Below are positions 59,093-64,000 of a stretch of DNA of 64,000 bases, piece by piece; position 1 is the stretch's first letter; each line of letters starts with the position of its first letter. Position numbers and translations under genes: made by a program. The stretch lies in assembly GCA_000171835.1 (NCBI GenBank), contig ABHC01000020.1:62001-126000 (forward strand), given 5' to 3'. The notes under the pieces are model-generated. The model was not told the origin of the DNA and did not search any database. It worked only from the letters and a program-made list of their open reading frames with translations. Source of the DNA: an alpha proteobacterium BAL199 (lineage in GTDB: Bacteria; Pseudomonadota; Alphaproteobacteria; Thalassobaculales; Thalassobaculaceae).

Positions 59093-60033
59093 CAGTAACG
59101 GATCCGCGGATCGACGAGGATGTAGATGATGTCGATCGCCAGGTTGATTAGCACGTAGATCGCCGAGAAAATCAGGATAACCCCCTGCACTATCGGATAG
59201 TCGCGCCGCAGGATCGCATCGGCCGTCAGCCGGCCGAGGCCCGGGATCGCGAACACGCTCTCGGTCACGACCACGCCGCCGATCAGGAGCGCGATGCCGA
59301 TGCCGACCGTGGTGACGATCGGCACAGAGGCGTTCCGGAGCGCATGGCGGAACAGGATCGGCACGATGCCGAGCCCCTTTGCGTGGGCCGTCCGGATGTA
59401 GTCCTGGTTGATCGCCTCGATCATCGACGCCCGCGTGATTCGGGCTATCAGAGCCACGTAGGTGACCCCGAGCGCCACCGTCGGCAGCGCGATGGCCCGC
59501 AGGAAGCCCCCCAGATCCTTGAACGGCGAGACGTAGCCCATCACCGGGACGAGCTTGAGCTGCACCGCGAACACCATGATCAGCAGATAGGCGAACACGA
59601 ACACCGGCACCGAGAAGCCGAGAACGGCGAAGCCCATCATCGTGCGGTCGATCCACGAGCCCGCGCGCCAGGCGGCGACGATGCCGAGCGGGATCGCGAC
59701 CACGACGCTGAGCAGGATCGTCGTGGTGCTGAGCGCCAGGGTCGGCTCGATGCGCTGCATGATCAGCTGGGAGACCGGCCGGCCCGAGAAGATCGAGGTG
59801 CCGAGATTGCCCTGCATGATCGCGCCGAGCCAGTTCAGGAACTGGGTATGGAACGGCAGGTCGAGGCCGAGCGCCGCGCGGATCCGGTCGATGTCCTCCT
59901 TGGTCGCGATGTCGCCGGCGATCACCGCGGCCGGGTCGCCCGGCGCCAGATGTAGTAGCCCGAACACGAAGAACGCGACGAACGCCATCACGAAGGCCGT
60001 CGCGACCAGGCGCTTGAAGATCAGGGCGATCAC
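59092..60033 (-). CDS. ABC transporter permease (DppB-like)
   Basis: A 313-aa membrane protein. N-terminal helix and the DppB motif [17 protein letters not shown], then six membrane segments and the EAA loop [22 protein letters not shown]. It overlaps the downstream permease (TGATG) and lies 10 bases downstream of the amidase. Confidence 0.93.
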
Positions 60034-60043
60034 TGGCGGAACC

Positions 60044-61450
60044 TTATAGCGCGGGCCGTCGATCGGCCCAGGGGCGGGCGCGCTCGAAGGCGCGGCTGGT
60101 CTGGAGGACGCGGAGGTCCTGGGACCGGCCCGCGACGATCTGGATGCCGACCGGTCGGCCGTCGGGCGTGAAGCCGCAGGGGCAGGTCGCGGCAGGAACC
60201 CAGGTCAGGTTGAAGGGGTAGGAGAACCCGGCCCAGCGGATCCAGTCCCAGGCATGCTGCTCCCAATGCTCGGGCATCAGCCGACCGGCCGGGAACGCGG
60301 CAACCGACATGGTCGGCGTCACCAGCAGGTCGTAGCGGGTGAACAGGTCCTGGACCTTGGCGTAGAAGTTCAGGCGCTGCTGTTTCGCCCGAACGTACTC
60401 CGCCGCCGAGACGGACAGGCCGTCGCGCACGCAGGCAACCAGCCCCGGATCCATGCGGTCCTGCCACTCGTCCAGCAGCAGGCCGAGATTGCCGGCGAAG
60501 TTGGAAACCCAGAAGCAGCGGTGCATCTCGGTCGGGTCGTCCCAGAGCTGGTCGACCTCCTCGACGTGGCAGCCGAGCTCGGTGAACGCGTCGACCGCCT
60601 TGCGGACCGGTTCGGCGACCTCGGGATCGACCTTCAGGTAGCCGAGGTCCGGGCTCCAGGCGACCCGCAGGCCGTTGATATCGGCCTCGAGGTTGTCCAG
60701 ATAACTCGGCGGCTCGTCGGTCAGGCTTGCCATGTCACGGTCGTCCGGCCCGGCCAGCACATCCAGCATCAGCGCAGCGTCGCCGACGGTGCGGGTCATC
60801 GGGCCGATATGCGAGACACTGTCGTTGTTCGGCGCCGGCGCATACGGGATCCGTCCGAAGGTCGGCTTGATGCCGTAGATCCCGCAGAACGACGCCGGCA
60901 TGCGGATCGAGCCGGCACCGTCCGAGCCCTGGTGCAGGGGGCCGATGCCGGCGGCGGCGCAGATCGCGGCGCCGGTGCTCGAGCCGCCGGCGTTGTAGCC
61001 GTGCTTCCACGGGTTGTGCGAGATGCCGGTCAGCGGGCTGTCGCCGCAGCCCTTCCAGCCGAGCTCCGGCGTCGTGGTTTTGCCGATCACGACGGCACCG
61101 GCCTCCCGCACGCGCTCGACGATCGGCGCGTCGGACTCGGGAACCCGGTGCTCGAAGATGTACGAGCCGGCCATCGACCGGATGCCCTTGGTCATCACCA
61201 GGTCCTTGATGGTGACCGGTATTCCCTCGAGCGGCCGGAGGTGCTCACCGCCGGCGATCCGGCCTTCCGAACGCTTCGCCGCATCGCGCGCGGCGTCGAA
61301 CGTCGGAGTGCAGATCGCGTTCAATCGCGGATTGAGAGCCTCGGCGCGGGCGATCACGGAGTCCACTAGCTCGGTCGGCGAAAGCTGCTTCGCCCTGATG
61401 AGTTCCCGCAAGGTCGTCGCCGGCGTGAAACAGAGATCCTCGTCAAGCAT
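60044..61450 (-). CDS. Amidase (amidase signature family)
   Basis: A 468-aa amidohydrolase. The Ser-Ser-Lys triad is given by K in [13 protein letters not shown] and Ser in [15 protein letters not shown] and [13 protein letters not shown]. No signal peptide, so it acts in the cytoplasm. It is first in the importer operon and probably hydrolyses an amide or small peptide that the transporter brings in. The ATG at 61450 (MLDEDLCF) starts the conserved part; 61468 is possible. Confidence 0.92.
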
Positions 61451-61771
61451 GCCGTCCCCCACCCCCATGAAGCATCGCGATATTGCGATCCTAGCAGCCT
61501 GTCGGACTGATGTCCGCTCGGCGTTGTATGAGCCGACATTTCCCATTTGAGCGGCCCATCCGCCCATGGTTGACGGCATAGTAGGCAAATTCCGGCTAAC
61601 CGGAAGGCGGAGTCGCGCGATGACAGCCGCCCTCGCAGCATGAACGCCGCCCCGATCGGTTTTGTGGTTTCGCGCTTCAGATGTGGAAGGAAGTTTGCGG
61701 AACGACGTTTAAAAAATAGTTGTAAATTTAATCGCGATTTTTAAGCTGATTTATGCAGCCATGGATAAAGC
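61451..61771. other. Intergenic region upstream of the amidase operon
   Basis: 321 bases without a gene. Holds the palindrome at 61474-61489, the presumed promoter of the amidase operon, and from about 61690 an AT-rich stretch (poly A/T) at the end of the IS1595 remnant. Confidence 0.5.
61474..61489. promoter_or_regulatory. Imperfect palindrome before the amidase operon
   Basis: ATCGCGATATTGCGAT has inverted repeats ATCGC/GCGAT and is symmetric at 14 of 16 positions. It lies 24 bases upstream of the amidase ATG and could be a repressor operator; no regulator gene lies next to it. Confidence 0.35.
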
Positions 61772-62227
61772 TTATCCCTGAGCCTCCGGTGCTATCAACA
61801 TCTTGTATGTGGCAGGCGTGATGCCGACGGCGATGGCGAGGATTGATCGGAAGGTGGCGTGCCGGGTACGGCGGCGGTTGAACCGGAACACGAATTCTTC
61901 GAGGTAGGCTTGCAGATGCTGGGGCCGCAGGCCGTGGTAGACGCCGAGCGCCCAGGTCTTGAGGTTGGAGAACACGCGATGGACCCAAGGCAGCACGATA
62001 TGAGCGGCCATGGCGCCGACGACGCGCGGATCGTGGCTGAGGTCGGGGGCGCCCGGGTAGCTGGCCCAGCCGTCGGTCCTGGCGGTGGCTCCGGGCGCGA
62101 GGTTTGCGGCGAGGAAGGCGTGCAGGCTGCGGGCGGAAAAGTCGGCGATCTGCGCCAGGCGGATGCGGCCGGGGCCGCCATCGCCGACCTCGACGGCACC
62201 GGCGAGAACACCTATCCAGCGCGACAC
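61772..62227 (-). pseudogene. IS1595-family transposase, C-terminal fragment
   Basis: The frame contains ATARTDGWASYPGAPDLSHD, HIVLPWVHRVFSNLKTWALGVYHGLR and LEEFVFRFNRRRTRHATFRS, the C-terminal part of the ISXO2-like (IS1595) transposase domain with a catalytic Asp in RTDGW. The N-terminal zinc-ribbon and first catalytic acid are gone; the first possible start is a GTG at 62227, at the junction with the phage gene. Confidence 0.85.
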
Positions 62228-62448
62228 GCCTGCGCCTGCTCCCGCATGACGCTGTAGTCGGCGAGCATCTCGGCGATCGCCGAACTCTCCGGCAGCAGAT
62301 CAATCTCGTCGGCCGCACGCGCCTGGAACTCGCGGGTGTACTCGACCACGGGCGGGCAGACGGTCGCGACGCGGTCGTCAGAAGCGACCGTCGCGCATGC
62401 GGTCAGCAAGCTCGTCGCGATCGCGAGGACGGCGATGGTCGCCGGCAC
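62212..62448 (-). CDS. Rz1-like phage lipoprotein (o-spanin)
   Basis: About 78 aa from GTG 62448 (92 aa from ATG 62490). A signal peptide ends in the lipobox LTAC, giving a small outer-membrane lipoprotein, then CPPVVEYTREFQARAADEIDLLPES and YSVMREQAQACR, a pattern found in small lysis-associated proteins of alphaproteobacterial prophages. The last residues are fused to the IS1595 fragment (stop in its sequence). Its endolysin is not in the window. Confidence 0.55.
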   Translation of the reverse strand: MPATIAVLAIATSLLTACATVASDDRVATVCPPVVEYTREFQARAADEIDLLPESSAIAEMLADYSVMREQAQACRAG

Positions 62449-63451
62449 CAGTTTCTCTGAACGGACCGACGGCTCGCTGCTGACGGACATCGGACAGACG
62501 GCGGCCGAACTCGCCGGTACGCTCCAGTTGATGGCGCACTACATCGCCCGCCGTCACGGCCTCGCGGACTACTTCGAGGCATTGCGCTACTGCCCCTATG
62601 TGCTCTCGAACGACCGGGTTCGGATTCCGGACGCGATCCCCCAGGCAGCCAACATGGACCACCTCGCAGACGGGCTGTGGATCCATGGCGGAGAGGATGA
62701 GTCTGAGTTGGCCTTCCTCCCCAAGGTGCCGCTGTTCCATCAGCACGCATGGATCCCCTGCATGGCAACCGCCGGCACTGTGTCCGCCGACCATGTGGCG
62801 CAAGACAACGAGGACATGCGCCAGCAATTCAAGGCCATTGCTGACTACGAGGGGGTGACGCAAGCGCGCTTTGCCCTGACCCGCAGGATCTCGATCGCCA
62901 TCGCGCCGCTCGGCCAGGACCGGTCGCCCTCGGCGTGCTTCGTGATCGAGCCCAGGCTGGCGGCCTGGATCGACGGACATTCGATCGACGTCTTCGGAGC
63001 GACCCCCGGCGAATGGTTCCCGGTCCCGCATGAAGACCGCTGCTACGGCTTCAGCGCCGACGCTTGGAATGTTGATCTGGTGCCTGACGCCGATCACCTC
63101 GACTGTTACCGCCTGGAAGTGGTCGGCCGCGAGAACACCCTGAATCTCATGCGGAGCCACATGTACGGTGAAGGCCTGGATCCGCTGATTTGGGGCTTCG
63201 ACGCCGAGGCCACCGACCGAAACGAGCCACTCGCGCCAACCGCCGCCCCCGGCCTGACCATGATGGGTGTGCTCCAGCGCAATCTCACAGCCGTGGCCGA
63301 GGAACACCGCATCCAGAATCTGCTGGACGCCGATGCCGCCCGGCTGACGCGGCTGCTGGCCGACGCCCAGGCGGAAGACCGGGAGCGCTACCGCAGAGCC
63401 CTCCAGCCGCTGATCGACAGATGGAAAGAACAAACGGAGATCAACCGATGA
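62435..63451 (+). CDS. Hypothetical protein, about 338 aa, coupled to a UDG-like gene
   Basis: No family recognised. Start uncertain: ATG 62435, ATG 62531, or an original start lost at the phage junction near 62450-62470. The N-terminus is helical (AELAGTLQLMAHYIARRHGLADYF), then a probable alpha/beta core with many Trp/His (PLFHQHAWIPCMATA, TPGEWFPVPHEDRCYGFSADAW, LRSHMYGEGLDPLIWGF-like segments), and a charged terminal helix. Soluble, no signal peptide. It overlaps the next ATG by 4 bases (ATGA) and so probably works with that protein. Confidence 0.6.
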   Translation: MVAGTSFSERTDGSLLTDIGQTAAELAGTLQLMAHYIARRHGLADYFEALRYCPYVLSNDRVRIPDAIPQAANMDHLADGLWIHGGEDESELAFLPKVPLFHQHAWIPCMATAGTVSADHVAQDNEDMRQQFKAIADYEGVTQARFALTRRISIAIAPLGQDRSPSACFVIEPRLAAWIDGHSIDVFGATPGEWFPVPHEDRCYGFSADAWNVDLVPDADHLDCYRLEVVGRENTLNLMRSHMYGEGLDPLIWGFDAEATDRNEPLAPTAAPGLTMMGVLQRNLTAVAEEHRIQNLLDADAARLTRLLADAQAEDRERYRRALQPLIDRWKEQTEINR

Positions 63452-64000
63452 CCGACGCCTTCCGCCTCAACCTCGCCGACCGTCTGCACCGCAACGCCAA
63501 GGTCGACCGACCGGCGATCTTCGGCGCAGACGACCCCCGGCCGGTCAACCTCCCGCAGGACGCCGAGACCATGTTCGCTGGCGCCGTCGGACCCCGCTAT
63601 CGGCCGGGCGGACTGGTGTTCCTCGCCATCAACCCAGGCGGCGGCGGCGATACGTATACCCGGCGCACACCGGAGGACGAGCGGTTCTACCCGCTGCTGC
63701 AGGCCTTCAAGTCGCGGGAGAACGCCGCCGACGGAATGAGCGAGTTCGAAGCAATCAACCGGGCCTTCGCGGAATCACTGCGCCGCTGGAATCTCTGGCG
63801 GATCCTCTCGCCCTGCCTGGACGCCGCCGGCATGGATCTCGACGAGATCGCATATCTGAACGCCGTTCCCTACCGCACCCGCGGTGACGCCGAACCACGC
63901 ATGGCCGCTAAGCGGGCGGCTTGGCAGACGCTGACCGGGCCGACGATCGATCAGTTGGCACCGCGTTTCGTTGTCGCGCTCGGCAAGAAAGCAGGAGGCG
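63448..64000 (+). CDS. Uracil-DNA-glycosylase-like protein, 5' part
   Basis: 184 residues are seen before the window ends. The motif LVFLAINPGGGGDTYTRR resembles motif 1 (GINPG / GxxPG) of the uracil-DNA glycosylase superfamily. The segment AYLNAVPYRTRGDAEPRMAAK, then LAPRFVVALGKKAGG, resembles the N..PxR and PxxVxALGxxA motifs of UDG families 4 and 5. It lacks the Fe-S cysteines of family 4 in the visible part. The exact substrate is unknown. The ATG overlaps the stop of the previous gene. Confidence 0.6.
   Translation, partial: MTDAFRLNLADRLHRNAKVDRPAIFGADDPRPVNLPQDAETMFAGAVGPRYRPGGLVFLAINPGGGGDTYTRRTPEDERFYPLLQAFKSRENAADGMSEFEAINRAFAESLRRWNLWRILSPCLDAAGMDLDEIAYLNAVPYRTRGDAEPRMAAKRAAWQTLTGPTIDQLAPRFVVALGKKAGG

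Follow-up and report, generated by a model that had tools for sequence, protein, structure and literature searches.

A probable divergent uracil-DNA glycosylase-superfamily gene, overlapping a gene of no recognised family, between fragments of mobile elements

Two overlapping genes at the right-hand end of the window (the whole stretch of DNA analysed, 64,000 nucleotides, from contig C50 of a genome of 6.1 Mb) raise the question of whether they form a two-gene module for base excision or phage defence, as a preliminary description had considered possible, or whether only one of them belongs to a recognisable family. The second gene has the appearance of a member of the uracil-DNA glycosylase (UDG) superfamily. 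The features concerned are the following:

61775..62227, minus strand: IS1595-type transposase remnant without its N-terminal part (Pfam DDE_Tnp_IS1595)
62222..62435, minus strand: truncated prophage lysis-type gene, an o-spanin-like ORF (homology to prophage copies)
62435..63451, plus strand: gene A, 338 aa, without recognised family (ORF list, coding-frame test)
63448..64000, running on beyond the window, plus strand: gene B, UDG-superfamily-like, 227 aa (Pfam, structure of a homologue)

Genes A and B share the bases ATGA, in agreement with the preliminary description, and are presumably co-translated. Gene B is complete on the same contig (L008:5448-6131), its end corresponding to window position 64131. 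In codon statistics derived from five genes nearby, the frame of gene A scores +0.242, with the other five frames negative, and ranks best in 10 of 10 sub-windows; the frame of gene B scores +0.235, again with the others negative. The coding signal thus favours the gene A frame, and an antisense ORF of 351 aa over gene A is unlikely to be a gene. Shine-Dalgarno-like GAGG and GGAG are found a few bases before the ATGs of genes A and B, respectively. Third-position GC is 0.81 in gene A and 0.82 in gene B versus 0.89-0.94 in the three neighbouring genes measured (by name, presumably an amidase, a permease and a binding protein), which is consistent with a foreign origin.

The mobile character claimed for the neighbourhood is supported on both sides, with a truncated IS1595-type transposase and a prophage gene to the left and a host-gene fragment and two transposases to the right. 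The transposase remnant is confirmed by Pfam (DDE_Tnp_IS1595, E=6.1e-22), the match covering only profile positions 40-153 of 153, with the first 39 gone. The adjoining stretch 62222-62435 aligns with prophage lysis-type genes on other contigs, at 82% identity over 214 bp for the C51 and C39 copies and at 85% over 181 columns for a copy on C24. This prophage homology ends at 62435, within the lysis-type gene; a 16-base longer match in the copy of genome G002 needs a gap and was taken as chance. As to the o-spanin-like gene suggested here, the ORF is present and matches phrog_26778, a family annotated as of unknown function, over residues 28-90 only; its 5´ end is the antisense of gene A. The ATG of gene A lies at the seam, its A agreeing with the phage copies and the next base differing. 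Since this ATG is placed on the junction with the truncated prophage gene, the true 5´ end of gene A is uncertain, and the gene may be 5´-truncated, with its real N-terminus lost. As a separate observation, 31-36 bp of the lysis-type gene (window 62400-62435) recur elsewhere in the genome, at six sites with 90-100% identity, two of them (C40:8198 and C42:48526) in a different context; the repeated stretch is perhaps a shared lipoprotein signal segment.

To the right of gene B, a 56-bp piece shares 91% identity (blastn) with the terminal part of a gene that is intact in G002 and that we take to encode a dihydrolipoamide dehydrogenase. After this fragment comes a DDE_Tnp_1_4 transposase, and a Mutator-family transposase lies farther along. 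Judged by the broken pieces on both sides, the A-B stretch amounts to about 1.75 kb between fragments, and comparison with two other genomes of the genus gives matches of 37-57 bases only. A palindromic CCCGATCGGCGCCGATCGGG-type element is present in two copies 296 bases apart ahead of the DDE_Tnp_1_4 transposase gene (L008:6320-6646, equivalent to 64320-64646 and thus outside the window). On the opposite side of the locus, at least 1540 bp (window 60000-61539), holding what we take from their names to be an amidase-like gene and the end of a permease gene, recur with 100% identity at G000:C59:93792-95330. At its permease end the copy stops shortly past window 60000, by an apparent transposase recognised by eye, and at its opposite end it stops at 61539, close to the IS debris of the window.

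The motifs that had first drawn attention to gene B, INPGGG (residues 61-66) and VALGKKA (residues 176-182), are both in place. Its best Pfam match is to the UDG family PF03167 (E=2.2e-4, residues 113-184), with 21.8 bits versus a curated cut-off of 24.3, a score that falls short of Pfam membership. A HopA1 match in Pfam (E=0.14) and two NCBIfam matches far under the cut-off (E 0.045 and 0.31) were rejected as chance. Gene B has no match in PHROGs, in PADLOC (of 2023) or among the sequences of solved structures, the one match of the B family among the latter (E=0.11) being chance. The genome has three further UDG-superfamily genes over the Pfam cut-off (G000:C52, C68 and C60), with which a profile-profile comparison of the gene B family gave no match (probability 0.2 and 0.4, from very shallow alignments). 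A weak match from the class, L019 (E=0.0098 over residues 118-187, with an alignment spanning residues 118-192 on inspection), carries family-4-type GEAPG and HPAYLL; being a family-4-like UDG, it supports the kinship of gene B. Gene B is thus a probable divergent UDG-superfamily protein.

Only two independent homologues of gene B were found, one in a genome and one on a prophage contig. P0003, from a Rhodospirillales metagenome-assembled genome (G080), is 33% identical (E=3.1e-22). P0004, the candidate from an IMG/VR contig, is 40% identical (E=7e-44 among candidates), and its first 44 residues are seen again where a second contig, of almost the same gene content, ends. Neither adds a Pfam match (P0003 at E<=1, P0004 at E<=0.01). 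In the genome samples searched, which overlap, gene B matched only its own genome among 61 relatives and among 36 genomes of the order. The 398 phylum genomes gave its own genome and one weak match (G636), 385 class genomes its own genome, G080 and nine weak matches (11 genomes with a match), and 308 class genomes its own genome, G080 and one weak match (G150). A scan of species genomes returned a single relative, the same as that of G080, and plasmids and phages held none with gene B, P0003 or P0004 as query. Eight loci with weak matches were inspected (L011, L012, L014, L015, L017, L019, L028 and L055), and L013, L016 and L018, which have internal stops, were left out; all but L019 (seven of the eight) were unrelated or without a clear match. 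Scanning viral contigs for the motif pattern yielded five stretches, one of them true (L026, the locus of P0004) and four in unrelated ORFs.

The gene for the prophage homologue P0004 has a ParB-like/methyltransferase gene and two terminase-small genes ahead of it and a serine recombinase gene behind it. Its third-position GC is 0.52 versus 0.80-0.89 in all four neighbouring genes measured, which suggests a moron-like insertion. The two terminase genes ahead of this UDG-like moron are successive Terminase_4 small-subunit genes (L026:2416-3415). The gene for P0003 (L020:6946-7653) shares four bases with the 3´ end of a GlgE-type gene, and an alpha-amylase/maltokinase-type gene comes after it; this location inside a trehalose/glycogen-type gene cluster is an odd site for a DNA glycosylase. 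That gene B is a mobile accessory gene is well supported. Among the papers listed in searches for Brig-type and moron-borne UDGs we noticed no description of the gene B family.

Structure prediction bears on the assignment through the 40%-identical homologue. P0004, modelled with the in-window part of gene B as its sole companion, gave a low-confidence model (pLDDT 51.5, pTM 0.52) in which the alpha/beta fold of the UDGs was found. The first 15 Foldseek rows for this model are UDGs (best E=2.6e-4), and the MUG structures 1mtl and 1mug are among the matches. Among the best 50 VIA-align rows, which were drawn from Foldseek's own ranking, 49 belong to the UDG superfamily and the sole exception is a SAVED protein (Z 6.0). 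The family 4 UDGs 4zbx and 4zby align with Z 9.6 and 9.5 at 3.5 and 3.3 A over 150 and 147 residues, respectively. Lower Z scores among the rows listed are those of UdgX (about 7), SMUG1 (about 6.5) and MUG (2c2p and 2c2q, 5.8 and 5.7). Viral structure models gave no match at E<=0.001, and the weaker rows include several phage UDGs and DNA polymerases. Gene B thus most likely belongs to the UDG superfamily, and its own fold, seen through the homologue, would be that of a UDG. The claim of UDG likeness is borne out to this extent, with a sub-threshold Pfam match, a weak match to a family-4-like UDG and a low-confidence model of a homologue as its grounds.

Among the residues invariant in the three homologues are N62, P63, G65, G66, D68, T69, W114, W117, R118, I119, E133-Y136, P141, R143-R145, R201 and T202, and N-P-[GA]-G-G-x-D-T-[YF], W-x-(x)-x-WRI, EIAY and P-[YF]-RTR are common to all three. 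LGKKA and RTIGDSY are common to gene B and P0004 and missing in P0003, which also lacks the Asn of AYLN; some members of the family may therefore be inactive. In gene B, motif 1 has an Asn (INPGGG), and RTIGDSY is found where the His of motif 2 is expected. The accessible part of one source (PMC5387724) names the third place of motif 1 as the proposed water-positioning residue in families 1 and 2, occupied by Asn in family 2, and describes families 2 and 6 as being without the motif-2 His. Both gene B (AINPG) and P0004 (GINPG) have Asn at this third place. By the logic of family 2, gene B could be catalytically competent, with RTIGDSY replacing motif 2.

Gene A presents a different picture. 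It had been described as having no recognised family, and we found none: Pfam and NCBIfam gave nothing over the cut-off, and PHROGs and PADLOC did not match it. A TetR_C match of its C-terminus (E=0.0065, 16.9 bits versus a cut-off of 33.7) and a single match among the sequences of solved structures (E=1.9) were set aside as chance. The model of gene A is unusable (pLDDT 35.8, pTM 0.19), its best part being a C-terminal pair of long helices. No relatives were found in plasmids, phages, viral contigs, species genomes, 385 class genomes or 398 phylum genomes. Three weak matches from the class (E 0.0015-0.0054) were taken as chance: L022 comprises 42 residues inside a long ORF (presumably that of a hydantoinase-like protein), L024 contains a stop, and L023 has no tblastn match. 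Scans of collections with a single protein as query detect only close relatives, so more distant ones of gene A may exist.

The refuting condition named in the preliminary description for the two-gene module, that homologues of gene A are never found beside gene B, was applied to the loci of the gene B homologues. By tblastn, L020 has no gene A match better than E=3, and L026, which is 5.3 kb long, has none at E<=10; gene A is thus found beside the gene B homologue at neither of the two independent loci on which this comparison is based. A conserved two-gene module is therefore not supported, and with no relative of gene A found we reject a conserved A-B pair on present data. The partnership looks local, and an A-B module and a defence role are no more than possible. 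The defence part of the proposal gained no ground from PADLOC, which matched neither gene A, gene B and the two homologues nor any of the six window-side neighbours given. Of two prophage genes from beside P0004 that were scanned, the methyltransferase matches type II methyltransferase models, whereas the recombinase has no match.

We consider it somewhat better than an even chance that gene B encodes a rare, divergent enzyme of the UDG superfamily, likely a glycosylase, that was acquired horizontally and has an accessory role, with gene A as a local partner. As we infer its catalysis, substrate and biological role, gene B would flip a non-canonical base out of DNA and hydrolyse the glycosidic bond of the flipped base, leaving an abasic site; the water would be positioned by Asn62 in motif 1 (INPGGG), perhaps together with Asn138 (AYLN). 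Gene A precedes gene B here, in the same short operon. The phage-borne, compositionally foreign relative and the scattered occurrence argue for an accessory role, either as a phage moron or against phages, and a housekeeping role in uracil repair is less likely because the genome already has three UDG-superfamily genes. The UDG-superfamily glycosylases Brig1 and Brig3 were recently shown to be phage defences and were found via cloning of soil DNA, not by annotation. The gene B subfamily, with a phage-borne member, a motif signature of its own, a score below the Pfam cut-off and no PADLOC match, is a candidate of the kind that annotation misses, and the substrate of gene B could be a base so far not recognised as a target. 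If it were only a stray repair enzyme, it would still be a divergent branch in the catalytic variety of the superfamily. The finding is a modestly interesting lead, not a discovery.

Within the superfamily, the closest structural likeness is to the family 4 UDGs. Sulfolobus tokodaii 4zbx/4zby and Thermus 1ui0/1ui1 are the top matches of the P0004 model (Z 9.6 to 8.8, among the rows listed), and the motif-1 loop, a middle strand with Asn and an ALG.KA-type strand occur in a similar order. However, family 4 has GE[AG]PG and the motif-2 His (motifs taken from the accessible part of PMC5387724 and from the genome's own family-4-like protein), whereas gene B has AINPG and RTIGDSY and does not have the family 4 signature. 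UdgX structures are among the fold matches of the P0004 model, but the class motifs given in the accessible part of PMC10359453, GEQPG and HPS(S/A)(L/V)(L/V)R, are absent from gene B by inspection.

Other explanations of the locus have to be weighed against the preferred one. One is that the A-B stretch is debris, gene B being a degenerate, non-catalytic UDG fold and gene A having been cut short, with a start codon supplied by the junction. The junction at 62435 does create the ATG of gene A, broken genes lie all around, and P0003 is without several motif residues. We nevertheless regard this as quite unlikely, since both genes hold long open frames with host-like codon periodicity, Shine-Dalgarno-like GAGG and GGAG precede their ATGs, and gene B retains the motifs common to the prophage homologue P0004. 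Gene B could also be an ordinary broad, slow repair glycosylase of the MUG/TDG type (family 2) that was moved by mobile elements, with gene A unrelated. An Asn-Pro-Gly motif 1 with Asn at the catalytic place, in P0004 even as GINPG (which we take to be motif 1 of MUG itself), the lack of a motif-2 His, and the presence of 1mtl, 1mug, 2c2p and 2c2q among the listed matches all point in this direction. NCBIfam and PDB sequences gave no family-2 match. Against a MUG/TDG-type enzyme, family 4 and UdgX structures outscore MUG (Z 5.7-5.8), gene B has W-x-x-WRI and RTIGDSY, the genome is already supplied with three UDG-superfamily genes, and one relative of gene B is phage-borne. On balance we find a MUG/TDG-type enzyme unlikely.

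The pairing itself invites comparison with the Brig proteins, the nearest functioning precedent. According to the accessible part of PMC11078745, the UDG-superfamily protein Brig1 removes alpha-glucosyl-hmC from the DNA of T4 and has Sulfolobus tokodaii UDG as its best structural match (Dali Z 9.2); the P0004 model shares this best match. Brig3 removes hmC; the brig3 gene overlaps the gene for BapA, which was of unknown structure and function at its discovery and is an ASCH-like glucosyl hydrolase; N50 and W100 of Brig3 are both essential, the former directly preceding P51 and the latter standing three residues after Y97 (accessible part of PMC13160076). A and B likewise form an overlapping pair of a UDG-like protein and one of no recognised family, and N50-P51, E55, Y97 and W100 of Brig3 have counterparts of similar order and spacing in N62-P63, D68, W114 and W117 of gene B, including the aromatic pair three apart. 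The distance from the Asn to the second aromatic residue is 50 residues in Brig3 versus 55 in gene B, as counted from the text and not from an alignment. However, Asn-Pro in motif 1 also occurs in MUG and SMUG1, so this likeness is not specific to Brig3. The gene order is also reversed, brig3 being first in its operon and the UDG-like gene B second here. Pfam at E<=1 gives no ASCH match for gene A, which is not recognisably BapA, and neither PADLOC nor NCBIfam matches it; it is missing from both homologue loci, and PADLOC shows no defence gene or island among the six window-side neighbours scanned. An anti-phage module of the Brig3-BapA type, in which gene A would strip, expose or mark a modified base and gene B excise it, therefore appears improbable. 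We hold it to be just as improbable that the pair is a new, very rare two-gene anti-phage base-excision system carried between genomes by prophages, in which a glycosylase subfamily with the signature NP[GA]GGxDT[YF] ... WxxWRI ... RTIGDSY would be specific for a novel phage-type modified base and a partner of new fold, gene A, would unmask or present this base. Gene B is not filed as a Brig; compared by description only, it has in common with Brig1, Brig2 and Brig3 that all are divergent UDG-superfamily proteins.
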